NCBI RefSeq assembly: GCF_017569185.1 | Contig: NZ_CP071869.1 | Coordinates: 930,001 to 994,000, forward strand | Origin: Polaribacter cellanae | GTDB lineage: Bacteria > Bacteroidota > Bacteroidia > Flavobacteriales > Flavobacteriaceae | Direction of reading: 5' to 3' | Length of the DNA: 64,000 nt | Shown here: positions 11,380 to 32,734 of the stretch, piece by piece | Layout: every line of letters starts with the position of its first letter | Numbering within the stretch: position 1 is the stretch's first letter | The notes under the pieces: generated by a model | The model's database searches: none | What the model was told of the DNA's origin: nothing | The model's input: only the letters and a program-made list of their open reading frames with translations | Translations under genes and position numbers: made by a program

Positions 11380-11755
11380 TCATAGAACAATTAAATTTTC
11401 TGAGCATTTTATTATTATGTGTTCATTTTTAACATTTATCTTTTCAGGAATATATGGTGTTAGACTTGAAGTTCCAGCCGTACATGCTGTCATACCCGTT
11501 CCTTTACATTCAGTTTGAGTATAAGTACTTGTAAATCCAATAGTTGTTCCACAATTATCTATCATCGTATAGGTCGAACTATTAGTGGTAACATTTCTAT
11601 ACATATATTTACCTTCATTATTTTCTGCATTAGCAATCGATAATTTCATTAAAGAAGGTAAAATAATTTTTTAATCTATCTTAGAAATTGTTATTACATT
11701 AAAAAATGTTAAAGATATTATAATTGTGACTCCGAATATTCCTATTTTTTTTCAT
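11380..11755 (-). pseudogene. Decayed NVEALA-like cysteine-rich peptide precursor
   Basis: ATG at 11755 is followed by eight A residues. Seven would keep the hydrophobic leader (IGIFGVTIIISLTFF) in frame, and a TAA also lies between that segment and LPSLMKLSIANAENNEG. The downstream reading frame (11649-11380) keeps the AxA-E junction SIANAEN and four cysteines, then ends IKCSENLIVL. So the leader is broken by a one-base insertion plus a stop, and the C-terminus may be altered by fusion to the hipA fragment. It is related in layout to the intact precursors at 24034, 23757 and 31142. Confidence 0.65.
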
Positions 11756-11794
11756 TTTGTAAAATTCTAAAATTATATTTGATTTAATTTAGAC

Positions 11795-12050
11795 AGTCTA
11801 GAAGAAAATACTACTTGTATAGTATTGACAATTTGTTATATTTAATAGCCATTAATAATTAAAGACTACTCACAAGCATTTTTGTATTATTCCGTAGGCG
11901 ATTGGTTTTAACTACACATTTTACGATACTGTTTTTCAGCAAAAAAATTAATTTCAGGCTTTCTAAAACATTATTCAACACTAAATTTTTATATTTACAA
12001 ATGTAGAACCGCATATGAACAAATTCTGTCACTTTGCTAATTCTTAAGAA
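11795..12050 (-). repeat. Shared leader region, copy 1 (upstream of decayed peptide)
   Basis: There is no gene in this gap. On minus it starts with AATTAGCAAAGTGACAGAAT (12035 downward) and ends with an AGTAGTATTT block close to the peptide start. Both parts recur upstream of the peptide doublet (24350-24611), and the GTGACAG core recurs before the 13253 signal peptidase. The first bases resemble the last codons and stop of the small HTH gene at 24612, as if a former copy of that gene had been deleted here. Confidence 0.6.
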
Positions 12051-15867: not shown

Positions 15868-17679
15868 TCAATACCATATTTGTTTTCCATTTCTATACTC
15901 AAAAATTCTTTCTTGTCTGCCTCCATCAAGACATTTTAAATATAATAATGCCCTTTTCGGAACATTGTCAAACTTTAATTCACATGAAGAATCAGCCTTT
16001 TTTTTGCCTAAAGAAATAAAACTGCCTTCATCTGCATAAAAAAGCTCATAATTCCCCCCTACAAAAACATGGTTTAAGTTATTTGGTGAGGTAAATCTAA
16101 ATTTAGAAATGTACTGAGGACTTCCTAAATCTATTCCTTTCCACGTTATTGAATCGGTTTCATTAGATGAATTTGAAATAAAATCTCCTTTCAAAGAAAC
16201 TTCTTTACCCTCTAAATTTTCATAAAATAATTCGATTTTTTTTACAGTTATCTTGTTTTTAGAATACAATCTATAGTATCGATATTTATTTTTAGGGTTT
16301 ATTTTAATATCATAAGGTCTTAATTCTGGCTCAAAATTTATTTTTCTTAATATAGTGAAATTTTTAAAATCCTTTCTATTAGAAGCTTGTATTAAAGTTC
16401 CCTTTAATAATTTAGCTTCTTTAAGCAATCCTTTCTTCTCTGGGTATTTTCGTTTTATTATAACTTCATGTCTCTTCCCTTCTGCCATAAATTCTCTTTG
16501 ATTGCCATTATGGTCAAGATGAAAAGGATTTCCAAAAGGGATTATTGTACCACTTTTATAGTATCCAGGTTGATATACAATATCTGTTCCCATCTTGTTA
16601 AATATAACTTTATTACCTGTTATTTTACCCCATTGAACTGGAACCCATTTCTTGTTAACTCCCAAAACACTTAAGTATAAATAATAAGTATTCTTTGGAG
16701 GAGCTTTTGTGAATTTTATCTCTACATTTATAGCCTTGAAATATGAATCAGAAACATCAATTTTTTTTATATCCCTGAACAAAGGGGGTATATCTTCTAT
16801 CTTTAGTCTATTGTCAGAAATTGGCCCTTCTATATGTGTTGAAAAAGTATGCCTATATATTTTTGGAAGACGTATTTTTCCACTCCAATCGTCTTCAAAT
16901 CTATTATTATTTATTTTAGGATTATAGAACCAATTGTTTCCCGATTCCCAAAAAGATTCAAAGTAAAGTGTCTTACCTCCATACAGTAAAGCATTCCATT
17001 GGTGGTCCCCCTCTCTTGTCCCCCAGGCTGGAACAAAATCTATAACCATAGGAATACCTTCTGCATTAACCAAATAAGCATTAAACCAACTTTTTATGGC
17101 ACAATTACCGCGCTTTATTTTCATGAAATCCTTAAATTTAAGTATTGGACGCTTATAAATTATCCAATAATCAAATTTATATTCTTTATATTGTATAAAT
17201 AGTGAATCGCAAGCTTTGGTGAATGACATAGGATATGAATCTTTAAAATGATTCTGATTTTTTTTTATAAAAAAATCTCTCCAGTTTTCAATAGCTTTAC
17301 CTTGTATATGACGGTAAGGTAAAATATATTCACAAAAATGATTAAAACTTACGCTATCTCTGGCATAAGGATTTGTTTTCCATGAGTTATAAGCTAAATT
17401 TATATTATTAATTAAAAAATCACTTTTAATTACCTTAATATCTTTAATGACTGATTTATACAAATTTATAGTATCATACGAATAATTATTAGGTAAATTA
17501 GAAATCAGGAATTTTGCCGCTTTTAATTTTTCTTTATTATTTTGATTTTTATAATACTCCAAGACTTTAATTAACTCTACTTTGTTTTCTCCAGCCATTT
17601 TTAGTGCCTCGCCTATATCTGAATTATATTGACTACAGGAATAAATACATAAAATGAATAATAGAATAATCTTCTTCAT
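15868..17679 (-). CDS. Transglutaminase-like lipoprotein, paralogue
   Basis: 603 aa with lipobox CIYSC (Cys15). It is homologous along its length to the 675-aa neighbour: N-terminal IGEALKMAGENKVELIKVL, the shared FCEYILPYR motif (116-124), catalytic Cys193 in KRGNCAIKSW, His226 in GDHQWNALL and an acidic residue near 241. The C-terminal beta-sandwich has YELFYADEG and the end motif ERIF...IWY. It starts 6 bases after the RND stop, so it is cotranscribed. The 246 bp to the next gene contain only AT-rich sequence. The tandem duplication suggests two related substrates or a heteromeric complex (inference). Confidence 0.7.
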   Translation of the reverse strand: MKKIILLFILCIYSCSQYNSDIGEALKMAGENKVELIKVLEYYKNQNNKEKLKAAKFLISNLPNNYSYDTINLYKSVIKDIKVIKSDFLINNINLAYNSWKTNPYARDSVSFNHFCEYILPYRHIQGKAIENWRDFFIKKNQNHFKDSYPMSFTKACDSLFIQYKEYKFDYWIIYKRPILKFKDFMKIKRGNCAIKSWFNAYLVNAEGIPMVIDFVPAWGTREGDHQWNALLYGGKTLYFESFWESGNNWFYNPKINNNRFEDDWSGKIRLPKIYRHTFSTHIEGPISDNRLKIEDIPPLFRDIKKIDVSDSYFKAINVEIKFTKAPPKNTYYLYLSVLGVNKKWVPVQWGKITGNKVIFNKMGTDIVYQPGYYKSGTIIPFGNPFHLDHNGNQREFMAEGKRHEVIIKRKYPEKKGLLKEAKLLKGTLIQASNRKDFKNFTILRKINFEPELRPYDIKINPKNKYRYYRLYSKNKITVKKIELFYENLEGKEVSLKGDFISNSSNETDSITWKGIDLGSPQYISKFRFTSPNNLNHVFVGGNYELFYADEGSFISLGKKKADSSCELKFDNVPKRALLYLKCLDGGRQERIFEYRNGKQIWY

Positions 17680-17685: not shown

Positions 17686-20600
17686 TTAAGTTTTATCGGA
17701 CAACATTGTTATTGAATTATGTTTTTTTGTTATAAATAATGGTAAATAAAAGATTATTCCAATTAGAGAAAATATTAAACCTCCAATTGAACCGACAGCA
17801 AATGAAAACCAAAAGGCTTCATTTTGACCACCCCAAACAAAAGGAATTAAACCAACAATTGTTGATGTGATGGTAAGAATAACAGGAATAATTTTATAAT
17901 TAAAGGCTTTAAAATAAAGAAATCTAGAGTTTCTTTTTTGATATTGAATTTTTAAATTATTAAAATCATTCACGATATAAAGTGCAGAATTTACACCAAT
18001 ACCACATAATAATATAAATGAAGCATAGCCACCTTGGTCGAAATTGAAATCAAACACATAAAATGTTAAAAACAAACCAATAAATGAGATAGGAATCATA
18101 CTAATTATTGCAAGCGGCTGTTTTAAAGATTCCAATAAAATAGCGCATATAAAAAAGATAATTCCTATGACTATAAATAAATAATAGTACTGTTCCTTGT
18201 CTTTTTTATTCCATCTATTATATTTTTGTTCAAATACCCTATAACCGAGTGGTAACTTGGGTTCAAAACTTTTAATAGTTTTCTCTTTAACTTTTTGAGC
18301 CAACTGAAAAGTCCCTAAAAAATCATACGCAACTGTTAAACTATATTGTTGATTATTTTTTTTAATCGTATTTCCAGTTTTCTTTTTCTCTACAGTTGCT
18401 AATTGAGCTAATTTATATTGTTTATTTTGAATTGCTATTGGCGTATTCTTTAAATCCCATACATTAAACTTTTTGTATTTGTCAGAAATTAATTTCACAT
18501 TCTGTAATTCATTATTTTGAATAATAGAAGGCAATCTACCTGCGTAGACTTTATTTTTCAAGTATTCGTAAAGTTGCGCTTGAGAAACATTAGCAAGTGC
18601 TAATTTATTCGTATTAAAATCTAAATAATATTCATATAAGGAATTACTTCTATAAGCATTGCTTGTTATTTCTACTTCTTTGACTCGCGAATTAGAACTA
18701 TCTATCAATTGTTGCAATAACTGTTCTGCATAACTGTATAATTTATCATAATTATAGCCCTCTAATACAATTCTATATTGTTTTGAACCCGAACCCAAAG
18801 CATTAGAAAAACCCCTACCAATACCACTAACAGACCAATCTACCCCCCCTAAGCTAATTGCCTTTGACTCGATTAAACTTTTTAAAGTATATGGAAAACC
18901 GCCAAATTCATATTCTTTTTTAAAATAAATAGCAATATTAGAGTTTCTATAGCTAGATATTCTGGTTTCAAATAGTTCAATTTCATTAAAACGACTCAAA
19001 TATTTCTCCATTTTAGAAATAGCTTCATTCAATTGTAGTATGGTACAGCCATCTGGCATTCTACCTGTGACTCTTAATGTAGTTCTTTCAGGTTCTGAAT
19101 AATACGAATTTTCAAAAACATCTTCTGTAAACAATCTTAATGAGCCACCAATTACTTTTTCTAAAGTAGGTCTTATATCATTACTAAAATCTTCATTTCC
19201 TATTGTTTTATTATAAAGTTCAGTAAAAAAACCCTCTCCTTTTATTTCTTTAGGTAATAATTGAAATGGAATTCCAAACCCTAAAATAAACACCAACATA
19301 AACAACCATTTAAAACGTGGTTTTTTCATCCAAAAAATTATCCGTTTATAAAGATTTGTGAATCTAACAATTCTCCTTTTTCTTTTTCTAGAGTAATTGA
19401 TACGCTTTTTAGAGGTATTTATCTTATCTAAAAGTGCTGGCACATAATATAAAGACACCAACAAAGAAACACCTATATTTATGGCAATTACTAAAGCAAA
19501 ATCCAATAAATCTGCTTTTTGATTTTCCTTTAATAAAAAAATAATCATTAGCGCCCCAATCGTTGTAAGCGTTGCTGCTAAAATGGCTAAAAATACTTTT
19601 TTATTTCCTTTATTTTTAATATGATCAATCATAATAATACTATTATCTATGATAATACCAAAAGAAATAGTTATGCCCGCAAACGAATATAATTGCAATT
19701 CTACTTGAAACAAGTAATAAAAAATAATTGCGATTAATAAATTGGTAATGACGCTTAAAAATAGAATAACTAAGTATTTAAAACTTCTATTAATTAAAAG
19801 AATTAAGATTAGTAGAATGATAAAAGAAAATAAGGTGCGCTTTTGAATTTTATATAACTCTTCCACTACATACTCTGTAGTATCTTGCGTTAACTTTATA
19901 CTGTAGCCACTATCCAATTGAGCATTTAAACCTGTAACTCTTGCTTTAACAGTTCTCGCTAAATCAATAGTATTTACACCTTGCTCAGCATAAACAGTCA
20001 TATTTATACTGTTTAACCCATTTATTCTGTAGTAACTGTTCACAACAGCTTCTTTATAGGTGACTTTAGCTATGTTTTCTAATAGAATAATTCTATTTCC
20101 TATTTTTTTTATAGGAATTTTGTTCCAATTAATTTCAGCATCTCCCTTATAAGCTAAACTTAATGCTATTTCATAATTATTAGTATTGTTATTTGCTCTG
20201 TAAACACCATTACCTAATTCTTGTTCATTAAGGTATATATTAATTGCTTTTTGAATATCATTAACTGATAATTTTAATTGCAAAAGCTTATTTGTATTGT
20301 ATGTTATCACCCACTCAAAAGGAGCAGCTCCATAAATAGTAACTTTACTAACCCCTTTTAAAGTTGATAAATGAGGTAAAATATGTTTTTCTGCATATTT
20401 TTTAATATAATTAGGACTTTCAATTGCATTGATACTATACGATAAGATAGGCGCCTTGTTTTCATTTGGTGTACTAAGAGATAAGCTCGGGTAACTAACA
20501 CCTTCTGGAAGTTCTGAATAGGATTGTCTAATAAGATTTGCCATTTCAAAGCGAATGGCATCCATATTTGTGCTTTTTTTAAAATCAATGACTATATTTC

Positions 20601-20853
20601 CTCTCCCTTTATTTGACGTAGAGCTAATATTTTTTATGCCTTTGACCGTATTAAAAACACCTTCTAACTTTGCAGTAACTTCTTGCTCAAGTACTTTAGC
20701 AGAAGCATCTTGCCATCTGTAACTTACATTAATGGAAGGTAAAACTTTTGAAGGCGCTAACTGCACACTTAATAATGGAATTAAACAAACCCCAATAATT
20801 GATAAACAGATAAAAAGGGTAAGAATAGAAAATGAAGAAAATTTAAATTTCAT
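17686..20853 (-). CDS. RND-superfamily transporter (inner module)
   Basis: 1055 aa with the RND plan: N-terminal helix (about 7-28), a large periplasmic loop, a block of six helices (about 330-480), a second helix (about 515), a second loop, and a C-terminal helix block. TM4 reads ISFGIIIDNSIIMIDHI, so the AcrB Asp pair (DD) is Asp-Asn here. TM10 reads GIGVNSALYIVND, with Asn where AcrB has the proton-relay lysine. No adaptor or TolC gene is adjacent; those at 31631 and 24827 could serve. It lies between signal peptidase and transglutaminase-like genes, so a peptide substrate is inferred. Confidence 0.85.
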   Translation of the reverse strand: MKFKFSSFSILTLFICLSIIGVCLIPLLSVQLAPSKVLPSINVSYRWQDASAKVLEQEVTAKLEGVFNTVKGIKNISSTSNKGRGNIVIDFKKSTNMDAIRFEMANLIRQSYSELPEGVSYPSLSLSTPNENKAPILSYSINAIESPNYIKKYAEKHILPHLSTLKGVSKVTIYGAAPFEWVITYNTNKLLQLKLSVNDIQKAINIYLNEQELGNGVYRANNNTNNYEIALSLAYKGDAEINWNKIPIKKIGNRIILLENIAKVTYKEAVVNSYYRINGLNSINMTVYAEQGVNTIDLARTVKARVTGLNAQLDSGYSIKLTQDTTEYVVEELYKIQKRTLFSFIILLILILLINRSFKYLVILFLSVITNLLIAIIFYYLFQVELQLYSFAGITISFGIIIDNSIIMIDHIKNKGNKKVFLAILAATLTTIGALMIIFLLKENQKADLLDFALVIAINIGVSLLVSLYYVPALLDKINTSKKRINYSRKRKRRIVRFTNLYKRIIFWMKKPRFKWLFMLVFILGFGIPFQLLPKEIKGEGFFTELYNKTIGNEDFSNDIRPTLEKVIGGSLRLFTEDVFENSYYSEPERTTLRVTGRMPDGCTILQLNEAISKMEKYLSRFNEIELFETRISSYRNSNIAIYFKKEYEFGGFPYTLKSLIESKAISLGGVDWSVSGIGRGFSNALGSGSKQYRIVLEGYNYDKLYSYAEQLLQQLIDSSNSRVKEVEITSNAYRSNSLYEYYLDFNTNKLALANVSQAQLYEYLKNKVYAGRLPSIIQNNELQNVKLISDKYKKFNVWDLKNTPIAIQNKQYKLAQLATVEKKKTGNTIKKNNQQYSLTVAYDFLGTFQLAQKVKEKTIKSFEPKLPLGYRVFEQKYNRWNKKDKEQYYYLFIVIGIIFFICAILLESLKQPLAIISMIPISFIGLFLTFYVFDFNFDQGGYASFILLCGIGVNSALYIVNDFNNLKIQYQKRNSRFLYFKAFNYKIIPVILTITSTIVGLIPFVWGGQNEAFWFSFAVGSIGGLIFSLIGIIFYLPLFITKKHNSITMLSDKT

Positions 20854-20891: not shown

Positions 20892-21998
20892 CTAATATAC
20901 ACTTTTTAATAATCTATCCCATCGAAATTCATCTTGATAATTAGAATATAAAACACATTGTACTTTACCAACAATATTAGATTCTGGAAGAAACCCCCAA
21001 GCTCTAGAATCTATTGTTCCTTTTCTATTATCTCCCATCATAAAATAATAATTTTGCTTAAATGTATATGTGTTTACTTGTTTATTGTTTATGTAAAAAA
21101 CACCTTGTTTGTCTGTTAGTATACAATTTTCATACTTGTTTATTGTTTTTTTGTATAGCAAATAAATATCAAGGGTTAACTTTATTTTCATTCCCTTTTT
21201 AGGGATAATAATTGATCCCATATTATCAAGTGTCCACTTACTTTCTGATGTTTTAAGTAGTTCCTTCTTTAAATTAAAAGTATCTATTTCTTTCTGTAAA
21301 GATTCTACGTTTTTTAGCTGAGAAAATTGACTAAACTCTAACTTAGAAAGTATAGCACGTGCATACTTAGATCTTCCATTTTTTTGGAGCGAGATATTAT
21401 TTAAATTTATAGAATCTAGTTCTCTATACAAACGGTTATAATTACTAACAATAAATTTATAACTGTTTTTAACTGTACTAGGAGAATTAAACAAAATACT
21501 ATTAGTACAAATTTCGGCATCTTTTATTTTTAGTGTATCTCCAGGAAGAGCAACACAACGTTTCACTACAAAGAAATCTCGAGTTATACCCAAATTAAAC
21601 ACAAAAACATCGCCTTGTTTAATTGATGATGTACCTGATAATCTTTTATATGGCCACCATAGTTCTTTTATTCTTTTTCTAGCATTGTCATTAAAATAAT
21701 ACCCAATGTTTACCAAAGGAATATCAAACGGAGAACGCGGTAGTCTGGGGCCATATTTTAGTTTATTAACGACGATTACGTCATTTGGAAACAACGTGTT
21801 TTCCATTGATGAGCTTGGAATCTTATAGATATCAAAAACTAATAATTTAGTACATAAAACAAGGAAAAGTATAAAAATTATTTTAAATATAATTTTTATA
21901 CTTTTCTTTAACTGCTTTTGTTTGAGTAATTTATTAAAAAAACAAAATAAAGTGACAATTAATATAAGAAAAAAAGTAAAAAAAAACATATCTAACAA
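20892..21998 (-). CDS. Signal peptidase I (dedicated paralogue)
   Basis: 368 aa, an inner-membrane serine protease that cleaves after AxA. Two hydrophobic segments (about 4-20 and 35-53) precede the catalytic Ser64 in IPSSSMENTL. The base is Lys146 in VKRCVALPGD, and box E is MGDNRKGTIDSRAWGF near 330. A long lysine-rich insert (about 165-300) separates these, typical of Bacteroidota enzymes. It sits 38 bp upstream of the RND gene and downstream of the beta-propeller gene. The neighbouring peptides carry AxA-E junctions, making them obvious candidate substrates. The intact state contrasts with the frameshifted copy at 12068. Confidence 0.9.
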   Translation of the reverse strand: MLDMFFFTFFLILIVTLFCFFNKLLKQKQLKKSIKIIFKIIFILFLVLCTKLLVFDIYKIPSSSMENTLFPNDVIVVNKLKYGPRLPRSPFDIPLVNIGYYFNDNARKRIKELWWPYKRLSGTSSIKQGDVFVFNLGITRDFFVVKRCVALPGDTLKIKDAEICTNSILFNSPSTVKNSYKFIVSNYNRLYRELDSINLNNISLQKNGRSKYARAILSKLEFSQFSQLKNVESLQKEIDTFNLKKELLKTSESKWTLDNMGSIIIPKKGMKIKLTLDIYLLYKKTINKYENCILTDKQGVFYINNKQVNTYTFKQNYYFMMGDNRKGTIDSRAWGFLPESNIVGKVQCVLYSNYQDEFRWDRLLKSVY

Positions 21999-22131: not shown

Positions 22132-23163
22132 TTATAATTTATATAAATTCACTACCGAAAGTCCATCAGAATCTTGAGATAAACCATATAGTTTATTTTC
22201 ATTCTCATTGATAGTAAACTTAGAAATATTTTTATCTAACTGATAAGAGTTTAATAATTTTCCTTTAAAATCAAATACTAAAAGTTTTGTTCTACTATCT
22301 TTATGAGACATGTTTTTTTGCTGATATCCAGAATATAATGTATAAATTTTATTTTTACTCAAAACCAACCCAATAAAATGATTAACTATATTTTGAGGAA
22401 TAACGTAATTAGTTTTGACATTAAAATTTGGGTATTCAAATTCCCCTATTTTTAAAGATTTTATTAAATCCCCATTTAATTTATAAAAATTTATACGATT
22501 AAAGTATCTGCTAGCACCTACAATTAAATCATTTTCTTTACTATATTTAATAAAAGCATCATAGGCTTCAGCTCTTTTTTTTCTAGGAATATCATCAATT
22601 ATTGGATAGAAATCTATCCATTTTATTTCATTTTCTTTTTTATTATATATAAAAAATGTTCCTTCTCCTGATATGTGATCATTACCTAAAATTATTTTTT
22701 CATTATCAATTATAGTTAATTCAAAACCACCTAATATTTTAGGATTTTTTCTTTCAACAATTAAAGGGGCAAAATCATTATTTAAAATATTTTTTAAATT
22801 AAACTTTTTAAACTTTTTATGATTTATATCATGTATCCAAAATTCATTTGAATTATTATTTTCTGGCAATATTTCAGGGAAATAAAACTCATTTGGCCCA
22901 TTTCCCTTAAAGCCAAATGAGTTTATTTTTTTATAATCCTTTTCTGAATATAAATTTATGTATTTTTCACCACAACCATCAATAACGAAAAGAGAAGATT
23001 TTTGAGAATGTAATTGGTAAAAACAATTTGGTTTTATGGGTAAAACTTGGCTTTTAATTTTCTTAAATCCTGGTAATTCTATCGAATTAATATTTATATT
23101 TTCACTACAACTGGTGAAAAATATATATAAAAATAAATTAATAAATAAATATTTTTTTTTCAT
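22132..23163 (-). CDS. 6-bladed beta-propeller lipoprotein (inner module)
   Basis: 343 aa. The signal peptide has lipobox FFTSC (Cys19). Repeated blade-like strands and the phrase FGFKGNGPNEF match the Bacteroidota 6-bladed beta-propeller family, in which G-x-G-x-GPxEF is conserved. These NHL-like lipoproteins commonly accompany NVEALA peptides, although their role is not established. It starts 2 bases after the stop of the thiol lipoprotein gene, so the two are one operon. A paralogue is at 30096. Binding of the secreted peptide or a surface ligand would fit, but this is inference. Confidence 0.8.
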   Translation of the reverse strand: MKKKYLFINLFLYIFFTSCSENININSIELPGFKKIKSQVLPIKPNCFYQLHSQKSSLFVIDGCGEKYINLYSEKDYKKINSFGFKGNGPNEFYFPEILPENNNSNEFWIHDINHKKFKKFNLKNILNNDFAPLIVERKNPKILGGFELTIIDNEKIILGNDHISGEGTFFIYNKKENEIKWIDFYPIIDDIPRKKRAEAYDAFIKYSKENDLIVGASRYFNRINFYKLNGDLIKSLKIGEFEYPNFNVKTNYVIPQNIVNHFIGLVLSKNKIYTLYSGYQQKNMSHKDSRTKLLVFDFKGKLLNSYQLDKNISKFTINENENKLYGLSQDSDGLSVVNLYKL

Positions 23164-23165: not shown

Positions 23166-23696
23166 TTATTTCATTTTTGATTTTAACAATTCCAACATTA
23201 ATTTATTTTCAAGAGGAGATTTTATCATTACAATCGTATCATTATCTCCTAACCAAAAAGTCTCCAAGGGATTGTATATAAAATTATTTTTGCTCAAAAA
23301 AGTATCTATAGAATCTAAATATATTTCAAATGGATAATTATAGTCTTTTACTACACTTCTGAAATAAGAATTATAATCTCCAATTGCTAAAAATCTAACA
23401 GATAAGTTTTCAAGTATGTTTTTTTCTTTTATATGTTTTTTCCATTTTTCCATTTCTAAAAAACAAGAGGTACAAGAAGTGTTAATTAATTTGAGAATTT
23501 TTATGTTTTTGTTATTGTTATTATTTGTAAAATCATTTACTTTAAAGTAATCTTTTTCCACAAAATCTATCCTCTTATTTACCAGTTCAGGGTTATTGGT
23601 TTGAATAAATTTCTCGCTAACTCCATCATAGTTTTTTGAACAAGAAAAAATAAATATCACAAACAGAATCAATCCTAATTTATTTATATAATTCAA
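23166..23696 (-). CDS. Thioredoxin-fold (redoxin/TlpA-like) lipoprotein with CTSC motif
   Basis: 176 aa. Signal peptide with lipobox IFSC (Cys19). A strand then leads to NTSCTSCFLEMEKW (near residue 93), a CxxC active site placed as in TlpA/ResA-type thioredoxins. YNPLETFW later in the chain may be the cis-proline loop. It is anchored in the cell envelope by its lipid. It follows two cysteine-rich peptide genes after a perfect hairpin, and precedes the beta-propeller gene by 2 bases. Oxidising or isomerising disulfides in those peptides is a reasonable inference. Confidence 0.7.
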   Translation of the reverse strand: MNYINKLGLILFVIFIFSCSKNYDGVSEKFIQTNNPELVNKRIDFVEKDYFKVNDFTNNNNNKNIKILKLINTSCTSCFLEMEKWKKHIKEKNILENLSVRFLAIGDYNSYFRSVVKDYNYPFEIYLDSIDTFLSKNNFIYNPLETFWLGDNDTIVMIKSPLENKLMLELLKSKMK

Positions 23697-23756: not shown

Positions 23757-24026
23757 TTAAACTGTACAATTTCCTACCTCAAGTCGATTTTTAAGCCTAA
23801 CTTTTGGGCAACTCACTGTACACGTTGGTACTTTTTTTCCAAAAATCCATGTTGTTTCTCCAGCAAAACAAGCAGAATTACTTGATTGTCCTTCCTCAGC
23901 ATTTGCCGAATTTAACATTTTAATATAATCCAATTTAAAGTCTTTATTATAATTCTTTTCAAAGTTTAAATTAAAAATTGTTAAACAGGTTATAGAAAGT
24001 GCTACAATAGTTAAATTTTTTTTCAT
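23757..24026 (-). CDS. NVEALA-like cysteine-rich secreted peptide 2
   Basis: 89 aa from ATG 24026; an upstream extension to 24143 overlaps peptide 1 and is rejected. MKK start, hydrophobic segment about 4-19, a polar spacer, then a junction LNSANA-E at 41-44. The 46-residue mature part has four cysteines in the pattern CFAG, PTCxxxCP, GNCTV, the same as peptide 1. The start is 7 bases after the peptide 1 stop. The product is probably exported to the periplasm or beyond and cleaved at AxA. The role is unknown: bacteriocin, signal or surface peptide are all possible. Confidence 0.75.
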   Translation of the reverse strand: MKKNLTIVALSITCLTIFNLNFEKNYNKDFKLDYIKMLNSANAEEGQSSNSACFAGETTWIFGKKVPTCTVSCPKVRLKNRLEVGNCTV

Positions 24027-24033
24027 AATCAAA

Positions 24034-24321
24034 CTATGCAGTAACAGTACATTTCCCTTGGTAAGCTGGATTACCCATATATTCATATGGACAATTAGGT
24101 TTACATGTCGGATAGTATGATGATGTAATAACGTTTCCAGCATAACAATTGGTTTTAACCGTAGTTTCTGCTTGCGCCATAGATACAGAAAGCATATCTA
24201 AAAACACATCATTTTTCCCATCGTTATTTAACAAACTGTTACTACTCATTATTCCAAATGTCATAGCGATTGCTAAAGTAGCAATACTAATAATACTTTT
24301 TTTTGTTTTTAATTTTTTCAT
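24034..24321 (-). CDS. NVEALA-like cysteine-rich secreted peptide 1
   Basis: 95 aa. A basic start (MKKLKTKK), hydrophobic segment about 9-25, about 20-residue polar spacer with DML, then SVSMAQA-E at 45-52. The mature 44 residues contain four cysteines arranged CYAG, PTCxxxCP, GKCTV. This layout fits the NVEALA peptide family of Bacteroidota (leader ending in a small-residue/Ala/Glu junction), although the literal NVEALA string is not present. It is the first gene after a 290-nt leader that starts at the HTH gene, and is followed 7 bases on by peptide 2. Confidence 0.75.
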   Translation of the reverse strand: MKKLKTKKSIISIATLAIAMTFGIMSSNSLLNNDGKNDVFLDMLSVSMAQAETTVKTNCYAGNVITSSYYPTCKPNCPYEYMGNPAYQGKCTVTA

Positions 24322-24349: not shown

Positions 24350-24611
24350 TTTTTTTTTACAAAAGTCTTTCTAGGAAATACTACTTTTACAGAATATTAA
24401 ATAGCTATTATATTTAAAAACTATTTAGTCAATAAAAAATTAAAGACTTCCTCTGGGTGTTTTGGGCTTATTACATAGGCTCTTATTTTAGTTAAACAAT
24501 TTGTGAAACTCTTTTTTAACAACTGAATGCTCAGAGGTTTTTTTGTTTTTCATCGTTAAACTTTTACAAATACAAATTTAAACCCTCACAGGGACAAATT
24601 CTGTCACTTTG
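24350..24611 (-). repeat. Shared leader region, copy 3 (upstream of the peptide doublet)
   Basis: On minus, the stop codon of the HTH gene is followed by CAAAGTGACAGAATTTGTCC, whose core GACAGAATTTGTC is an interrupted palindrome. About 200 nt further is an AGTAGTATTTCC block 40-60 nt before the peptide 1 start. It is similar to 11795-12050 and in part to 13280-13510. It probably contains the promoter and operator for the inner module. Confidence 0.6.
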
Positions 24612-24812
24612 CTAATTTTCAAGAAAATACTTACAACTTTTTCTACAATAACATATTTTATAACCGTCGTTTCTTAAACTACTTATCATTCTTTTTATAG
24701 TTCTTACACTGCATTCAAAATCATTGGCTACTTTTTCTAAAGAGCTCAATCTCTTATGGTCTATTAGATATAGTAAGTGCCTCTCTTTTTCTTTTCTTTC
24801 AAAATAAGTCAT
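24612..24812 (-). CDS. Small HTH protein with cysteine-rich tail
   Basis: 66 aa. Residues about 17-50 form an HTH of the winged/HTH_11-like type (LSSLEKVANDFECSVRTIKRMISSL). The C-terminal tail ICYCRKSCKYFLEN holds three cysteines, which could bind metal or respond to redox state. It lies 14 bases after the TolC-like gene, so it ends the outer operon, and directly precedes the leader of the peptide doublet. A regulator of that leader is the obvious inference. Similar last codons (FLKN-stop) survive near 12040. Confidence 0.7.
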   Translation of the reverse strand: MTYFERKEKERHLLYLIDHKRLSSLEKVANDFECSVRTIKRMISSLRNDGYKICYCRKSCKYFLEN

Positions 24813-24826: not shown

Positions 24827-26341
24827 TTAATTGTCTAGTATGGTTTTAAAATTTCGTATTAATGGAGTATCATCTATAAAATTATACAATGTTAATTTTT
24901 GTACTTTATAATATAATACCCAATAATTTTGTAATGCTTGTATGTAGTTTTCATTTGCTTGTTGCCAAGCTTTTCTTGCGGCAGTAAGATTTAAAAAATC
25001 TACACTTCCTGACAAAAATCTTTTTTCAGTTAACTGATACGATTCTTTTGAAATTTTATTTGTTCTTAACGCCCCCAAAACCAACTCATGCTGAATATTA
25101 AAGTCTAAAACATTCTGTGTGATATCTTGTTTATAGGTTTCTTCATTTTGTTGGAGCTCAATATCTACAACATCTTTATTCATTTTAGCTGTTTTAATTT
25201 TTCCTCTACGCTCTCCCCAATCTAAAATAGGCACACTAAATTGAATACTTATATTTTGTTGGTCTAAAAACCTACCATAAGCATCTACAAAAGTTTCTGC
25301 TTGTTGGTTTAAACCATAACTGGCGGTTATAGACAAATCGAATCTATTCTCTTTAATTACTTGATCTAAATCTCTTAGTGCTTTTAGTTTTCTAATCTTT
25401 AAATCTAATATGTCTGGGTTATTTTTGTAGGCTAATTTAATGGCGGTATCTACATTTATTTTTAAATCTAATATTAATTCTGGTAACTCTGGTAGGGAAC
25501 TATTTGGTAGTTTATCTCTCAAAAATAATTTTAATGCTGTAGTAGCCTTTTGTAATGATTGTGTGTTTTGAGTCAAATTGGTATTTGCATTGTACACATC
25601 TAATTCTAAATTTAAAAGCTGATCTCTTTCAATGGCTATTAAATCGTATCGTTTTTTTCCAATACTATATAATTTTGTCGCTGTTATCTTGTTTTCTTTT
25701 GCTATTTCTACTTTTTTACTAGCTAATGCCCAGCTAAAAAATAAATTAACTGCTTTTAAATTAGTTATTTGTAATTCATATAAGAAATCTTGTTTGGCTT
25801 TTTGAAACTCTAAAGGTGCTGTTTTCTGCTCCCATTTAAAGCTATTAAAAGCCATAATAGGTTGTACCAAACCAATTCGAACTGGTGTAACATTATAGCT
25901 TTTGGTTTCAAAATCGCCAAAGTTTTCAAGCCTATTAAAACTAGAGCTTATAAATAAACTTGTACCAGTAGCTCTTATATTTTGGGTTGCAGAAATATTT
26001 GCATAACTATTAATGGTTTGCTGCTGCCTAAATACATCTATATTCTGCTCAGAATCATAACGTTCTATTAGAGCACTATTAAAAGTAAAGGGCCTACTAT
26101 TGAAGTCTATTTTGGGGAGTAAACTAGATTTATAAGATCTAAATTTCCAGTAACTAACACCATAATTTCGTTTTGCTTTAAAAATATCTAAGGAGTTTTT
26201 CCTTGCCAATTCTAAAACATTATTTAGTGTTATGTTTTGCGAAATGGAGATAACCTGTTGTTCTTGTGCACTAATTTTTATACAACTTAATAAAAAGTAG
26301 ATACCAAGAACAATTTGCTTTATTTTCATATATCTAATCAT
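24827..26341 (-). CDS. TolC-family outer membrane efflux protein
   Basis: 504 aa with signal peptide (to about residue 25, KISAQ). The chain has the long alpha-helical repeats of OEP/TolC proteins, including the family-like AARKAWQQANENYIQALQ near the end. It overlaps the RND gene by four bases (ATGA), indicating translational coupling; ATG 26329 (MKIKQIVLG) is the alternative start. It forms the outer-membrane duct of a tripartite pump with the RND at 26338 and, probably, the HlyD-type adaptor at 31631. The HTH gene follows after 14 bases. Confidence 0.88.
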   Translation of the reverse strand: MIRYMKIKQIVLGIYFLLSCIKISAQEQQVISISQNITLNNVLELARKNSLDIFKAKRNYGVSYWKFRSYKSSLLPKIDFNSRPFTFNSALIERYDSEQNIDVFRQQQTINSYANISATQNIRATGTSLFISSSFNRLENFGDFETKSYNVTPVRIGLVQPIMAFNSFKWEQKTAPLEFQKAKQDFLYELQITNLKAVNLFFSWALASKKVEIAKENKITATKLYSIGKKRYDLIAIERDQLLNLELDVYNANTNLTQNTQSLQKATTALKLFLRDKLPNSSLPELPELILDLKINVDTAIKLAYKNNPDILDLKIRKLKALRDLDQVIKENRFDLSITASYGLNQQAETFVDAYGRFLDQQNISIQFSVPILDWGERRGKIKTAKMNKDVVDIELQQNEETYKQDITQNVLDFNIQHELVLGALRTNKISKESYQLTEKRFLSGSVDFLNLTAARKAWQQANENYIQALQNYWVLYYKVQKLTLYNFIDDTPLIRNFKTILDN

Positions 26342-29300
26342 GTTTTCTTTGTAAATTGATAGTAACAGATTGGTATAAAGTATAAACTAACTATTGTGCC
26401 CAAAAGCATACCTCCAATTAAGGCTACTGCTAAAGGAGCTTGTAATTCTGCTCCTATTCCGCTAGTTAATAATAAAGGTACCAAGGCTAGAATGGTTGTT
26501 AAACTGGTCATTAATATCGGTTTTAAACGTCTTTGACCTGCAACTAATAACGCCTTCATTAACGGATATCCCTGTCTTTGTAATTGAATAATGGTATCTA
26601 TTTTTAAAATGGAATCGTTAATAATAATTCCACTCATCACTACAATACCTATCATAGACATTAAATTGATACTCATACCAAAAAGTTTTAAAAACAAAAA
26701 TGCACCTGCTAAATCTATGGGTACTTCTAACAATATAATCAACGGTAAAACAAAAGATTCAAATTGTGAGGCTAGAATAAAATACAGTAGTATTAAAGAA
26801 ATTAATAAGACTATTTTTAATTCGCTCATTAATTCTTGGTTAGAAAAAAAACTTCCAGAAAAATTTACATCGTACTGAGAGTTCTTGCTAACTACTTTCT
26901 TTATATCTGTAATAGTAGTTGCTACTTGAGCATCATCTATATGAAATGCTACAGGATAATATTCACCTTCATTACCTCCTGTAATTGTTTTTAAATCTTC
27001 TGATTTTACAGTTTTAATAAAGTTTTTTACATGAAAAACAGCACTATCTCTAGATATAACTGTTGTCTCATTTAGAATATCATTCAAATATTTTGCATTT
27101 CCTCCTAAAATTACTGGAACAAAGTTTTGATTGTCTACAATTGATAATACTTCACGCTCATTAAAAGCACTTTTTAAAGTATTAAATAACGTATTCGCAT
27201 TTACATTATACATCATTAGTTTTTCTTGATCTGCAACCAAAGTCATATACTCTTGTAGCGCAATAGGTTCTAACTTTATAGTTTCTGATTTTGCTTGTAG
27301 CTGATGCCAGATCGTTTTTAATTGTTTTTGTTGTTGACTTCCTAAATTTTCAACAGGGCGTAATTTTGCAACTAAAGAAGTTTCTTTATTTGAAAAAATT
27401 AAACTAAAAATATTGTCTACATCTTCATATACAAATACTGCATTCGGGTATGTTTTTGTCAAAAACTCATTTAAATGCCTTTTTATATTTGTTAGTGCAG
27501 TTTCTGATGTTGTTTCTACATAAAGTGTCATTTCTGAGCCTTTCGCATCTGCATTTTTATCTAAAATAAATTGCTGAGTCCCTACTAAAGCCGTTTGATT
27601 TATTAATTTTTCTTTAATAGGATTTAAAATTTCTAGTACTCTACGTTTATTTTCATCAACATTAATAGGTTCATTCCAATCTACTTTTAACAAAACCTCT
27701 GTACTTGTAAGCGCAGGCATTTGTGTTTTTGGTAAACTATTAAACAATCCAATAGTTGAAACTAAGAGAAGTATAATAATACTCCAAGAAGCCACTTGTT
27801 TTCTCATTACCCAACGAAATCCTTTTTCATACAAAACGGCATAATCTAAAGTATTTATTTTGGAAAAGAAACCTATTTCCTTGGTTATTGCATTACTTTC
27901 TTTTCTATATAATAAACGATATAAGACTGGTAATAATGTTATTGAAACAAAAAAGGAAATGAACAACCCAATACTTATTGCCATTGCTTGGTCATAAAAC
28001 AAAGCGCCACTTATACCACTTAAAAAAACCAGTGGTAGAAAAACAGCACAGGTAGTTAATGCTGAACTTAATAACGGTTTTATTACTTCATTTGTTCCTA
28101 AAACGCAAGATTCTGATAAGTTGAAACCTCTTTCTCTATACTGTGTAATATTATCGATAACAATAATAGAATTGTCAATCATTAAACCAATTCCTAAAAC
28201 TAAACCAGAAAGCGATATAATATTTATTGAAATGCCTAGAAGATGAAAAAATAAAAAACAAATAATAACTGAAGTTGGAATAGTAATTCCTATTAATAAA
28301 GGAGATTTTATATTTTTTAAAAATAAAAACATCACCGCAAATGCTAAAAGCATTCCCCATAATAAACTCTGCAATAAATTACTTATGGCAACATCTAATA
28401 ACTTGGTTTGATCTCTAGTAATAGAAAAATTAATATGCTCGTAATCTTTTTTCAGGTTTTTTATTAAGTTATTTAAAGAAGTCTTTAAATCGCCCATTCT
28501 AGCATCACTTTGTTTTATGATTGCCATTGTAAGTGCTTCGTCTCCGTTAGACAAAACTAAACCAGTTCTTTTTTGCGGATGCTCTATAACCTCCGCAAGT
28601 TCTTTCAGTTGATAAACCTTGTTATTTTTATTTATGTATATAGATTTTACATCATTTATTGTATTTAAAGAATTACCTAACCGAATATCATATTGATATT
28701 GATTATCTTTAATTAAAAGACTCCCTATATCTAAATTATTTGTTTTGATAGCCGATTCTAAATTATCTAAACTAATCCCTAATGCATCTATTTTTTTTTG
28801 ATCTACTTTTATTAAAATTTCTGACGATACTAAACCACTAATATCCACCATAGCTACTTCATTTAGCTGTTCAATTCTTTTACGAATTACTTGGTTAGAA
28901 AAACGATTGAAATCTACAAACTCCTGAGAGACGGGAAATAAATCATCTATATTATTAATTGTTGTTTTATTATTTTTAGCAGATTCTTTAAGGGTCATGC
29001 TCAAATAAAATACAGGAATATCTGTAGTATTTGCTTTTATAACCTTTGGGCGTTTAATCGTTTTGGGCAAACTACCCATTATTCTATCTACTTTTTCATT
29101 CACCTCTATAAAAGCATAGTCAATATTACTACCGTGAGAAAAACTAAGCTTAATAATCCCTAATTCATTAGTAGTTTCACTTTTAATATCTTTTAAATGA
29201 CCTACTTGCATTAAGCGAGAACGTAATGGTTTTATAATGGCATCTTCCAATTGTCTAGCAGACATATTATCTGCCTGAACCTGTACTGTAATTTCTGGAA

Positions 29301-29418
29301 TATCAATATCTGGCATTAACGATATTGGTATAAAACCAAAAGCATAAACACCTAATATCAACACCCCTAATGTTGTCATTAAAACAGCTATAGGTTTATG
29401 TATTAAAAATTTTACCAT
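26338..29418 (-). CDS. RND-superfamily transporter (outer module)
   Basis: 1026 aa, HAE1/AcrB-like topology, with N-terminal helix (about 10-30) and MPDIDIPEITVQVQA at the start of the first porter domain. TM4 has GIGLMIDNSIIVIDNI: the first Asp of the AcrB pair is kept and the second is Asn. TM10 region VMSGIIINDSILKID lacks the relay lysine at the expected place. It is coupled to the TolC gene by ATGA overlap. The 151 bp upstream to the thiol lipoprotein gene hold no gene. With the upstream adaptor it would form a complete envelope-spanning exporter; a peptide substrate is inferred from context. Confidence 0.88.
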   Translation of the reverse strand: MVKFLIHKPIAVLMTTLGVLILGVYAFGFIPISLMPDIDIPEITVQVQADNMSARQLEDAIIKPLRSRLMQVGHLKDIKSETTNELGIIKLSFSHGSNIDYAFIEVNEKVDRIMGSLPKTIKRPKVIKANTTDIPVFYLSMTLKESAKNNKTTINNIDDLFPVSQEFVDFNRFSNQVIRKRIEQLNEVAMVDISGLVSSEILIKVDQKKIDALGISLDNLESAIKTNNLDIGSLLIKDNQYQYDIRLGNSLNTINDVKSIYINKNNKVYQLKELAEVIEHPQKRTGLVLSNGDEALTMAIIKQSDARMGDLKTSLNNLIKNLKKDYEHINFSITRDQTKLLDVAISNLLQSLLWGMLLAFAVMFLFLKNIKSPLLIGITIPTSVIICFLFFHLLGISINIISLSGLVLGIGLMIDNSIIVIDNITQYRERGFNLSESCVLGTNEVIKPLLSSALTTCAVFLPLVFLSGISGALFYDQAMAISIGLFISFFVSITLLPVLYRLLYRKESNAITKEIGFFSKINTLDYAVLYEKGFRWVMRKQVASWSIIILLLVSTIGLFNSLPKTQMPALTSTEVLLKVDWNEPINVDENKRRVLEILNPIKEKLINQTALVGTQQFILDKNADAKGSEMTLYVETTSETALTNIKRHLNEFLTKTYPNAVFVYEDVDNIFSLIFSNKETSLVAKLRPVENLGSQQQKQLKTIWHQLQAKSETIKLEPIALQEYMTLVADQEKLMMYNVNANTLFNTLKSAFNEREVLSIVDNQNFVPVILGGNAKYLNDILNETTVISRDSAVFHVKNFIKTVKSEDLKTITGGNEGEYYPVAFHIDDAQVATTITDIKKVVSKNSQYDVNFSGSFFSNQELMSELKIVLLISLILLYFILASQFESFVLPLIILLEVPIDLAGAFLFLKLFGMSINLMSMIGIVVMSGIIINDSILKIDTIIQLQRQGYPLMKALLVAGQRRLKPILMTSLTTILALVPLLLTSGIGAELQAPLAVALIGGMLLGTIVSLYFIPICYYQFTKKT

Positions 29419-29569: not shown

Positions 29570-30112
29570 TTATTTACTAACACATTTAAGTATAAAATTT
29601 TCTTCAGCTTTAAAATCTCTATTATAGTTAGGAAAAAAAACATTTTTTATGCTGCCTTCTATATCTAACCTCAAAAAAACAGGAGTGTATATAAATTTTA
29701 ATTCTTTTCTAATTAAATCTTTTTCATCATTATAAACATAGTCTATATAACTGTTTTTTAGTTGATCTCTTCCGATATTGGCTGAGGTTGAAATAATATA
29801 AACTTTTTTAGATTTATTTAAGGAATCTATTTTTTTTGATATTTCATAACCAACATCAATACATGTACCACAATCAAATCCGTTATATAAGAAAATAGTT
29901 TTATTAGAAGTTTTTAAACTATCTTCTAAAATATCAGATAAAGATTTAATTTTTTTTCCTCTAATAGATTTTTTCTGTTGTTCTAAAATATTTTTTTTTA
30001 TTGATAAGTTCTTACTTATGGAATTATTTTCTTCTCTACTTTGTTTACATTGAATTATTAAAAATGTTAAAATTATCAAAGCAAAATTTTTACATCTATA
30101 ATTCATTATCAC
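29570..30112 (-). CDS. Thioredoxin-fold lipoprotein with CGTC motif
   Basis: 180 aa. Lipoprotein signal with lipobox LIIQC (Cys22). A basic linker region is followed by a thioredoxin-type strand and YNGFDCGTCIDVGYE (near residue 76), a CxxC site at the start of a helix. YTPVFLRLD about 65 residues later matches the cis-proline loop. It overlaps the end of the beta-propeller gene by 17 bases; ATG 30106 (MNYRCKN) is an alternative start. It is the counterpart of the CTSC lipoprotein at 23166, so each module pairs a peptide with a thiol lipoprotein. Confidence 0.72.
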   Translation of the reverse strand: MIMNYRCKNFALIILTFLIIQCKQSREENNSISKNLSIKKNILEQQKKSIRGKKIKSLSDILEDSLKTSNKTIFLYNGFDCGTCIDVGYEISKKIDSLNKSKKVYIISTSANIGRDQLKNSYIDYVYNDEKDLIRKELKFIYTPVFLRLDIEGSIKNVFFPNYNRDFKAEENFILKCVSK

Positions 30113-31079
30113 GTATTTTAGATTTAATTAAATTTCCAGATATAGCATCAAATCCAAAAAAAGTATTATCCTTTATAGAAAAATTCTCAAACCATCCTTT
30201 TCCAAGATTTATTATCCGTTTTGGCTTGATATTATCATCTAATAACTCTAGTTCAAGAATTTTGTGCGATTGTACTTTATTATTTTTATATGACGGTACT
30301 TTTAAATATAACTTATTCTTATCTAGAGATACATCAGAAGCAAGAACATAAAATGAATTAAATTTAGACTCTTTAGTTTTTATAAACTTTGTAAAGCTCT
30401 TAACAATATCAAGATTCGAGTAATCATATTTAGAAAGAAATTTACCTTTTAAATCATATATATTAATTTCTGGCCTTATATTGGAAATTGATATAACTTT
30501 ATTTTGATAGTTTATTAAATGACATTCGTTTTTTATAATTTCTTCGCTTTTATTTTCATAGTTTGTTAAACTACCAAAGCGAAAAGCATTACCTATGCTA
30601 TCAAATTTTGTAAAATTATATTCGTTGTCTGGACTACATATATAATAATTTGGTCCTTTTTTAAAAAAACTAAGTTGTGGATTAAATTTTATATCCTCTG
30701 GGGGATAAATTGTGTAAGAATATTTGTAATTATTAAATACTTCTATTGATTTTTTTCCATCGTTCGTAACATAAATATTTGAATTATCAACAAATATATT
30801 AAATGCTCCCAAAAAATCTCCTGGACCTCTACCTGTACTGCCAAAGGTGTTTTTTAAATTTAAATTCTTGTCAAGAACAATTACCTGATTTCGTTTATAA
30901 TCAGTTAAATATATTTGGTTATTATAATTTTTAATATTTCTAACATCAGAAATATACGTTCCGTCTTCTAGTTTATTAATAGATTTAATAAATTCTAAAT
31001 CTGTACTTTTGAAAGTGTTGTTATTTTTATTACACGAAATAAACAATATCATAAACAGAAAAAATTTAAGTGGTTTCAT
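30096..31079 (-). CDS. 6-bladed beta-propeller lipoprotein (outer module)
   Basis: 327 aa from ATG 31079, chosen because it gives a clean lipoprotein signal (MKPLKFFLFMILFISC); a start at 31103 adds eight residues. It has FGSTGRGPGDF, the hallmark GxxGxGPGxF of the Bacteroidota 6-bladed beta-propeller family, and repeated short-strand blades. It overlaps the downstream thiol lipoprotein by 17 bases. It follows peptide 3 after a perfect hairpin, the same order (peptide, hairpin, then lipoproteins) as in the inner module although the two lipoproteins are swapped. The molecular role of the family is not known. Confidence 0.8.
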   Translation of the reverse strand: MKPLKFFLFMILFISCNKNNNTFKSTDLEFIKSINKLEDGTYISDVRNIKNYNNQIYLTDYKRNQVIVLDKNLNLKNTFGSTGRGPGDFLGAFNIFVDNSNIYVTNDGKKSIEVFNNYKYSYTIYPPEDIKFNPQLSFFKKGPNYYICSPDNEYNFTKFDSIGNAFRFGSLTNYENKSEEIIKNECHLINYQNKVISISNIRPEINIYDLKGKFLSKYDYSNLDIVKSFTKFIKTKESKFNSFYVLASDVSLDKNKLYLKVPSYKNNKVQSHKILELELLDDNIKPKRIINLGKGWFENFSIKDNTFFGFDAISGNLIKSKIRDNEL

Positions 31080-31095
31080 AATTTTTATTTGTAAG

Positions 31096-31124
31096 ACAAG
31101 CATAAAGTTTTACTTTATGCTTGT
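31096..31124 (-). other. Perfect intercistronic hairpin after peptide 3
   Basis: ACAAGCATAAAG (31096-31107) pairs perfectly with CTTTATGCTTGT (31113-31124) around a 5-nt loop. It lies between the peptide 3 stop and the beta-propeller start with no U-run after it on the minus transcript. Its sequence is unrelated to the hairpin at 23713, but it holds the same position. Confidence 0.6.
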
Positions 31125-31141: not shown

Positions 31142-31432
31142 TTAAATGCATGCACTCTTATTATTATCGCAGTTAACCCAACCGTCACCTGATAAACAAA
31201 TGTAATCACCAGTACAACTAACTGAGCCACTAACTACAGTCTGTCCGTCTATTGTTTTAAAACAATTAGCAGATGCAGAGCATCCTGAACTATCTTCCGC
31301 ACTTGCTATTTTCATAGATATTAAATGAGAAAGGTTCAACTGAAAAGTTTCATCTGCTTTTCGATGATTTAAATTAATAGCCATTACAGCTAATAGAATT
31401 ATCGTTCCAAGAATAATTTTCTTTTTTTTCAT
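31142..31432 (-). CDS. NVEALA-like cysteine-rich secreted peptide 3
   Basis: 96 aa from ATG 31432; an extension to 31528 adds residues unlike a signal and is rejected. MKKKK start, hydrophobic segment about 6-20, polar spacer, then LISMKIASA-E at 37-46. The 51-residue mature region is rich in Ser/Gly/Asp and has six cysteines, a different pattern from peptides 1 and 2. It is encoded between the HlyD adaptor and the beta-propeller lipoprotein. The 198 bp upstream hold no gene and may carry its promoter. The family assignment rests on leader layout and context. Confidence 0.7.
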   Translation of the reverse strand: MKKKKIILGTIILLAVMAINLNHRKADETFQLNLSHLISMKIASAEDSSGCSASANCFKTIDGQTVVSGSVSCTGDYICLSGDGWVNCDNNKSACI

Positions 31433-31630: not shown

Positions 31631-32734
31631 TTAATTTTCACTTCTTTTCACAAATACCTCACTATCATGCGCTAAATTCAAATTATTAGAAATCACAATA
31701 GTGTCTCCAGTTTTTAATGTTGCGCTACTTTTATCTGGGTTTGGTATTACAGCATAAGATTTACTATTTTCTAAAATTGTTAAAATATAGGTCCAATAAG
31801 CTTTCCCTTTTTTAACTGTAAATAATACTTCTTGATTATCTCTTAAAACTACAGCAGATTTAGGTACAACAAATTGATTCGGAATATCCTTTTTTACAAA
31901 AACTTTTACATTCATTCCTTCTAATAAATTACCATCATTCTTTACTTTAGCTCTAATTAAAATAGTACCATCTTTTTCAACTTGTGGATTTATTGTAGTT
32001 ACTTTTCCTTTATAAGTTTTATTTGAAGCAAAAGGTTCAATAGAGATTCTATCCTTTACCTTTATGTCTTTAAGTTCAGATTCTATAATATAAAATTCAA
32101 CCTCAAAAATTGCATCATTTATTAAAGTAAGAAATTCTTTCCCTGAATAAATTTGATCATATTTTTTACTATTCATATTGGCTACTTTACCGCTAAAAGG
32201 AGCTATTAATTTGGTTGATTTTAAATCGAACTGAGTATTTTTTAATTGATGAATTGCATTTTTATAGCCAGATTTAATTGCCATCATCTCATATTCTTTT
32301 TCAGGTATATCTTCTTTATTTTCTGAATTAAACCCTCTTCTTATTTGTAAATCATTAAATTCTAAAGTAGCCTGCTTTAAATCGATCTCTGCCTTGGTTA
32401 CTTTTTGTTGATATGTAAAAGCATCTAAACTTGCTAATACTTTTCCTTTTTTAACATAAGTACCATTTTTAACGTAAATATTAGTCAATTTTTCACTAAC
32501 ATTAAATTTAAGTTCACTTTTTTCTAACGCTACCAAACGCCCATTACTCACTAATTCTTTTTTAAAAATTCCTTTGTTTAAAACAAGGATATTTACTTCG
32601 TTTTTATCTGGTAAGTATTCTTTTTTAGTTATTGAATTTTCCTTATCTTCCTTAGGTTTTGTACAATTCAATAAGAAACCAACGCAAAACAATAAATAAA
32701 AACATTTAACCAAATACTTATTTTTCTTATTCAT
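31631..32734 (-). CDS. Periplasmic adaptor (HlyD/RND membrane-fusion) lipoprotein
   Basis: 367 aa. Lipobox FLLNC (Cys24). Order typical of adaptors: beta strand and lipoyl half (LTNIYVKNGTYVKKGKVLASLD), a short coiled-coil hairpin (about 110-160), second lipoyl half (LIAPFSGKVANMNSKKYDQI), beta barrel (DRISIEPFASNKTYKGKVTTINP) and a membrane-proximal domain with VVPKSAVV. It would link an RND pump to TolC; the pump at 26338 and the channel at 24827 are downstream on the same strand. It overlaps the O-antigen-ligase-like gene by eight bases. Confidence 0.88.
   Translation of the reverse strand: MNKKNKYLVKCFYLLFCVGFLLNCTKPKEDKENSITKKEYLPDKNEVNILVLNKGIFKKELVSNGRLVALEKSELKFNVSEKLTNIYVKNGTYVKKGKVLASLDAFTYQQKVTKAEIDLKQATLEFNDLQIRRGFNSENKEDIPEKEYEMMAIKSGYKNAIHQLKNTQFDLKSTKLIAPFSGKVANMNSKKYDQIYSGKEFLTLINDAIFEVEFYIIESELKDIKVKDRISIEPFASNKTYKGKVTTINPQVEKDGTILIRAKVKNDGNLLEGMNVKVFVKKDIPNQFVVPKSAVVLRDNQEVLFTVKKGKAYWTYILTILENSKSYAVIPNPDKSSATLKTGDTIVISNNLNLAHDSEVFVKRSEN

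Follow-up and report, generated by a model that had tools for sequence, protein, structure and literature searches.

The tandem peptide genes of Polaribacter cellanae described here probably encode cargo of an NVEALA-type secretion system of Bacteroidota, in which precursors would be cut by a signal peptidase, oxidized and exported by RND pumps under palindrome and RNA control, with a bacteriocin-like role for the products. The genes lie in a stretch of 64,000 nucleotides (contig NZ_CP071869.1, positions 930,001 to 994,000), referred to below as the window.

Peptide Genes and Surrounding Locus

The initial annotation reported tandem peptides at 23757-24321, and both genes are confirmed, on the minus strand (Table 1); a longer ORF is also present for peptide 2, extending into peptide 1. 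The motifs C[YF]AG, PTC-x3-CP, and G[KN]CTV are common to both products, as had been stated. Cysteine spacing is 13/3/13 in peptide 1 and 15/3/13 in peptide 2. Alignment of the two cores scores 61, which was reached by 0 of 5000 plain shuffles and 0 of 5000 shuffles with cysteines fixed (mean of the latter 14). The two leaders are weakly similar (62 of 5000 shuffles scored as high). Peptides 1, 2, and 3 have no Pfam match. With peptide 1 as the query, a search of 149 genomes gave only sub-significant matches beyond the genome of origin, the best at 2.2e-4 and several interrupted by internal stops. AlphaFold modeling was uninformative for peptide 1 (pLDDT 42) and of no use for peptides 1 and 2 together.

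TABLE 1. Features of the peptide locus, in window coordinates and in minus-strand order.
Feature	Position	Strand	Remarks
Wzy_C O-antigen-ligase-type protein with TPR	32727..34616	(-)	
Membrane-fusion adaptor	31631..32734	(-)	HlyD
Peptide 3 precursor	31142..31432	(-)	96 aa, six-Cys core, leader type as in peptides 1 and 2
Second propeller	30096..31103	(-)	DUF5128
Second CxxC thioredoxin-like lipoprotein	29570..30112	(-)	
RND permease a (RNDa)	26338..29418	(-)	ACR_tran, AcrB-type
TolC-type outer membrane channel	24827..26341	(-)	OEP
66-aa helix-turn-helix protein	24612..24812	(-)	HTH_11-like, slightly below cut-off
Palindromic operator-like site GACAGAATTTGTC	24593..24605	(-)	Further copies at 13483-13495 and 12018-12032
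TAAATTTG	24573..24580	(-)	Matches flavobacterial -7 box TAnnTTTG
Structured 5' leader RNA (predicted)	24352..24547	(-)	E 5.8e-26; 30 nt before peptide 1 ATG
Peptide 1 precursor	24034..24321	(-)	95 aa, four-Cys core
Peptide 2 precursor	23757..24026	(-)	89 aa counted from ATG, four-Cys core
Thioredoxin-fold lipoprotein, CxxC	23166..23696	(-)	
Six-bladed propeller lipoprotein	22132..23163	(-)	TolB_like PF15869
Extra signal peptidase I	20892..21998	(-)	PF10502, TIGR02227
RND permease b (RNDb)	17686..20853	(-)	ACR_tran, AcrB-type
Large lipoprotein, no assigned family	15868..17679	(-)	
Large lipoprotein, no assigned family	13594..15621	(-)	
Second signal peptidase I copy, two frames	12068..13253	(-)	
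Second RNA copy, before decayed peptide	11783..11967	(-)	E 2.7e-12
Decayed fourth peptide gene	11380..11755	(-)	Leader with stop and frame change

Read along the minus strand, the locus runs from the Wzy_C protein through the adaptor, peptide 3, a propeller, a thioredoxin-like protein, RNDa, the channel, and the HTH gene to the palindrome and RNA. Peptides 1 and 2 follow, then the other thioredoxin-like protein and propeller, the signal peptidase I, RNDb, two large lipoproteins, and a decayed copy. This decayed cassette (12068-13253 and 11380-12032) consists of a signal peptidase split over two frames, an RNA copy, and a broken peptide leader. The large lipoproteins in 13594-17679 are paralogous, have no clear Pfam family, and are recurrent beside the system. 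The Wzy_C protein is also a recurrent locus member and might glycosylate peptides or lipoproteins. The HTH protein is 59-71% identical in relatives.

The signal peptidase I of the locus resembles the known enzyme in passing PF10502 and TIGR02227 (118 bits, cut-off 47) and in keeping the Ser and Lys motifs; S64 and K146, which we take to be the catalytic residues, are invariant in 11 of 11 homologues. It differs in being a second, sparse paralog beside a housekeeping LepB encoded elsewhere in the genome. The paralog is found at E<=1e-45 in 12 of 299 genomes of the family (own included), and the weakest of these matches (G119, 520 aa) is near ordinary LepB, with 70% identity to the P. cellanae housekeeping enzyme. 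The thioredoxin-like lipoprotein next to peptide 2 has a predicted thioredoxin fold (pLDDT 83), with ResA (E 2.1e-6) and DsbE nearest. All 21 such proteins have the CxxC motif, which is invariant in the 19 that were aligned.

A further copy of the system, also with a peptide, is present in the window's own genome (L172, C1:3516000-3535900). It includes an adaptor, RNDa, channel, HTH gene, palindrome, 115-aa peptide, DUF5128 propeller, and RNDb.

Leader and Core Sequences

Relatives were collected with the neighboring signal peptidase I as bait in the 299 family genomes (own included) and with an alignment of seven RND permeases, from which the best 80 loci among 84,980 named species genomes were taken. 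Small ORFs in the RND-anchored and the earlier peptidase-bait loci have a single leader type, with a lysine start, a hydrophobic segment, a spacer of about 27 residues, and AxA followed by E more often than Q. A profile of 37 leaders from other genomes, none from the window, matched peptide 3 (E 6.2e-6), peptide 2 (E 2.5e-5), and peptide 1 (E 1.1e-3); the best reversed-DNA decoy had E 0.15. The leaders of peptides 1 and 2 had been thought alike only in layout, which this result refutes. Iteration with the window peptides included gave 58 Bacteroidota peptides with 54 distinct cores at E<0.002. In the final round a decoy had E 0.0068, and an earlier round had produced one at 0.0013. Among the 54 distinct peptides, the leader rather than the four-cysteine core defines the family.

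In ordinary signal peptides, the hydrophobic segment lies nearer the cut than it does here, where the most hydrophobic leader 12-mer ends a median of 27 residues before it. The residue after the cut was scored by an unweighted rule, the first AxA beyond residue 33, which 4 of 54 peptides lack. It is E in 20 of 50, Q in 11, and D in 5. For signal peptidase I substrates of Bacteroidetes in general, PMC10653852 gives Q at this place in about 71%.

Leader matches at E<=1e-6 number 14 in six of the 299 genomes, and all six are within the 12 genomes with the signal peptidase paralog. Counts were restricted to this threshold because weaker matches (39 of 299 genomes at E<=0.001) are mostly partial and inside long ORFs. 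Two leader matches were set aside, one an ordinary-looking 169-aa protein (G211, L177) and the other a 56-aa ORF with the locus absent (G270, L176).

Cysteine makes up 9.0% of core residues compared to 0.4% of leader residues in the 54 distinct peptides. The core count is even in 50 of 54 (binomial 2e-11 assuming independence, which tandem paralogs violate), and disulfides are therefore likely. The initial annotation had read the pair as a conserved disulfide scaffold diversified after duplication. Duplicated, diverged, probably disulfide-bonded secreted peptides agree with the even counts, the cysteine enrichment of cores, and the adjacent CxxC thioredoxin-fold proteins, but the four-cysteine scaffold does not hold as the defining feature. 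Its spacing is not conserved in homologues at the family level: 4 of 54 peptides fit the pattern, among them peptides 1 and 2 themselves, and the remaining two (L106 and L085) have extra cysteines interleaved. A four-cysteine core profile was dropped as a family definition, the spacing being private to peptides 1 and 2.

Within-locus pairs elsewhere (L066, L057, L146, L065) have leaders 86-100% identical and cores 14-77% identical, and in L066 one gene combines one leader type with the core type of the other. Cores are thus hypervariable, exchanged or diversified while the leader stays stable. Peptides 1 and 2 show the opposite pattern: their cores are similar and their leaders have diverged.

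Upstream RNA and Palindrome

A conserved element of about 196 nt lies between the palindrome and the start codon, and its 3' half forms two successive hairpins of differing sequence in most single copies folded. When 12 divergent copies were simply aligned with MAFFT, RNAalifold returned the outer stem alone, with no covariation, so segment folding and a model from 11 close copies were needed. Across 90 sources, this model (R1) had 36 matches at E<=1. In alignments fitted to the model, and hence biased toward it, a 34-pair structure has two-sided changes at 30 of 34 pairs in 29 copies (27 distinct) and at 33 of 34 pairs in the 36 matches; in the 29 copies, 91.9% of cells are paired, compared to 33-51% when the model is slid. 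Taken alone, the window RNA has no folding advantage over shuffled sequence (z -0.84; 44 of 200 shuffles folded equally well).

A further model (R2) gave 31 matches, or 27 distinct once four same-genome duplicates are removed. Twenty-four of these precede an intact leader peptide, one precedes the decayed peptide of the window, and two precede neither (L043/L061 and L058:2358). The RNA is 25-60 nt ahead of most start codons. Among the 299 family genomes, it occurs at 16 places in eight genomes at E<1e-8, all eight in the signal peptidase set, with weak matches (E about 0.005) in G181 and G215. In 296 genomes of the phylum, matches are found only in two genomes of the window's genus.

Rfam families have no match at 11000-36000, and at 24330-24640 there are only chance-level matches, none reaching the gathering score. 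Flavo-1 (PMC9723704) is likewise a structured RNA of Flavobacteriaceae; the window element reaches no Rfam cut-off. By its covariation, the element appears to be a structured RNA not listed in Rfam, and the simplest reading is that it would be a leader tuning expression.

Sites within one mismatch of GTGACAGAATTTGTC number three in the 4.14-Mb genome, every one in this locus. The palindrome is 227-344 bp upstream of most peptides having one (503-515 bp in L046). Across all sources, the one-mismatch pattern has 55 strand-wise matches, 30 of them near a peptide, compared to 23 in reversed sequence. A palindrome lies directly upstream of 18 of 29 RNA copies (<=2 mismatches; 1% of shuffles by chance), and two others have only 13 nt of upstream sequence. 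In 16 of these 18, TTTG stands at the -7 position, exactly 14 nt past the palindrome, a promoter-like spacing; the flavobacterial consensus TAnnTTTG is taken from PMC9723704.

Linkage Across Genomes

Linkage was counted in RNDb-anchored loci with at least 20 kb of sequence, which excluded 38 of 80 as shorter. Of 17 loci with RNDb identity of at least 59%, the channel is present in 17, a propeller in 16, and the peptide, signal peptidase, and RNDa in 15 each; thioredoxin-like proteins (13), the adaptor (10), and the HTH gene (9) are less frequent, and absences are partly artefactual because locus flanks end at 10 kb. The linkage of peptide and RND permease weakens with RNDb divergence, from these 15 of 17 to 3 of 8 long loci at 50-58% and 0 of 17 at 36-49%. 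For loci of all lengths, the corresponding counts are 16 of 22, 4 of 23, and 3 of 35. The linkage is partly circular, since some of the leader and RNA rows were drawn from loci that were afterward counted. The trio of peptide, propeller, and thioredoxin-like protein also occurs at an orphan site (L175).

Several small contigs of Algibacter pacificus carry, whole or in part, a series of signal peptidase end, RNA, peptide, propeller, thioredoxin-like protein, and signal peptidase. These cassettes share 73-98% nucleotide identity over the signal peptidase and the RNA/leader start; the one exception is in L057, whose peptide region contains an internal duplicate. From similarity confined to these parts, it follows that each cassette has its own protease and a variable middle. 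In this species, the assembly is broken at tandem cassettes (L049, L052, L054, L057), where the signal peptidase and RNA repeats resemble one another.

Comparison With Known Systems

NVEALA peptides (PF14055) are, like those of the window, small Bacteroidota precursors with a hydrophobic N-terminus, a spacer, an Ala-ending motif, and a variable Cys-containing C-terminus. They differ in the motif, which is AxA-E in the window peptides. PF14055 does not match peptides 1-3 and has only sub-threshold matches genome-wide, outside the locus. Three of 296 phylum genomes have a match at E<=0.001, and in one (G525) the cut-off is exceeded. Four NVEALA peptides are matched weakly (E 3.7e-6 to 6e-3) by the leader profile, which had been made without any of them. 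In the single genome examined, G525, the NVEALA locus has homologues of RNDa (43%), the adaptor (39%), the Wzy_C protein (31%), the large lipoprotein (30%), and the signal peptidase (31%, E 7e-35), together with a channel, propellers, and a thioredoxin-like protein. NVEALA peptides thus appear to share leader homology and, in this one genome, a homologous locus with the window system. The RNA model has no match in the G525 loci. An NVEALA array in a Bacteroidia genome (L146, L147) sits in a homologue of the system, with a thioredoxin-like protein and signal peptidase near.

Class II bacteriocins combine a Gly-Gly leader and a variable disulfide core with a leader protease and ABC exporter in one locus. 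The window system is similar in having a leader and variable disulfide core with a dedicated protease and exporter together, but it has an AxA leader, signal peptidase I, and RND pumps. Gly-Gly is absent before the peptide 1 and 2 cores, and no ABC exporter was seen on reading ORFs of at least 90 aa at 8000-36000.

In Bacteroides thetaiotaomicron, the products of BT0662-BT0669 include an O-antigen ligase family protein, hypothetical proteins, a six-bladed propeller, signal peptidase I, and an RND adaptor (PMC10434189), a likeness in product names. The literature search found no paper on NVEALA; among the matches listed, none mentions DUF4221, DUF5128, or PF14055, and none describes this secretion system.

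Discussion

From the linkage and knowledge of the protein families, we infer that the precursors may be cleaved by the local protease, oxidized, and exported by RND pumps. A precursor would enter the Sec pathway via its N-terminal hydrophobic segment, and the dedicated second signal peptidase I would cut after AxA, about 27 residues beyond that segment. Two disulfides would form with the help of the CxxC thioredoxin-fold lipoproteins, and the RND permease(s), together with the adaptor and the TolC-type channel, would expel the mature peptide of about 45 residues. The palindrome, which covers the -33 region, and the structured 5' leader RNA of about 196 nt would control expression. The co-encoded propeller lipoprotein would be the cognate partner; its position and variability lead us to guess at immunity or a receptor. 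The released peptide would most likely act on competing relatives in the manner of a bacteriocin, and less likely as a signal. Narrow antagonism is favored because cores are hypervariable, the partner lipoprotein family differs per cassette, and cassettes are gained and decay.

Signaling could take the form of mature peptides acting as pheromones that are sensed by the propeller lipoprotein and feed back through the palindrome and RNA. A variable peptide does adjoin a variable propeller, cis-regulatory palindrome and RNA precede the cassettes, and the locus contains a small HTH gene. However, no sensor kinase or dedicated transmembrane receptor was noticed among the ORFs read at 8000-36000, and the 66-aa HTH protein is without a signal domain, so we consider a pheromone role unlikely. 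Somewhat more doubtful is that the peptides are retained in the periplasm or on the cell surface, in a structural or envelope-stress role, and that the RND pumps are unrelated multidrug pumps sharing the locus. Propellers and large lipoproteins are envelope proteins, and RND homologues of less than 50% identity can lack any detectable peptide, but across many genera the close homologues show tight linkage with peptide, signal peptidase, and RNA, and a structural role is ill-suited to hypervariable cores. It is very improbable that the element of about 196 nt is a DNA recombination or cassette-exchange site instead of a 5' RNA: the shared blocks of the Algibacter pacificus cassette contigs and their just one internal peptide-region duplicate would fit such a site, but the position of the element before most start codons, at constant spacing behind the -7 box, indicates a transcribed leader, and homologous recombination in repeats explains exchange without a special site.

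The peptides may belong to a distinct Bacteroidota secretion system, a broader proposal that we put forward tentatively, at a little under an even chance. It would comprise hypervariable disulfide peptides in exchangeable cassettes, a signal peptidase I of its own whose substrates depart from the Q rule of the phylum, export by paired RND permeases, and a new class of structured 5' leader RNA as a switch for each cassette, with the Bacteroides NVEALA peptides as its gut branch. Since the product names of BT0662-BT0669 match (PMC10434189), the idea may be testable in a tractable gut species. NVEALA-like peptides and propeller lipoproteins of unknown function are now tied to a concrete apparatus that would process and export them, and the same peptides are tied to a covarying RNA that is not listed in Rfam.
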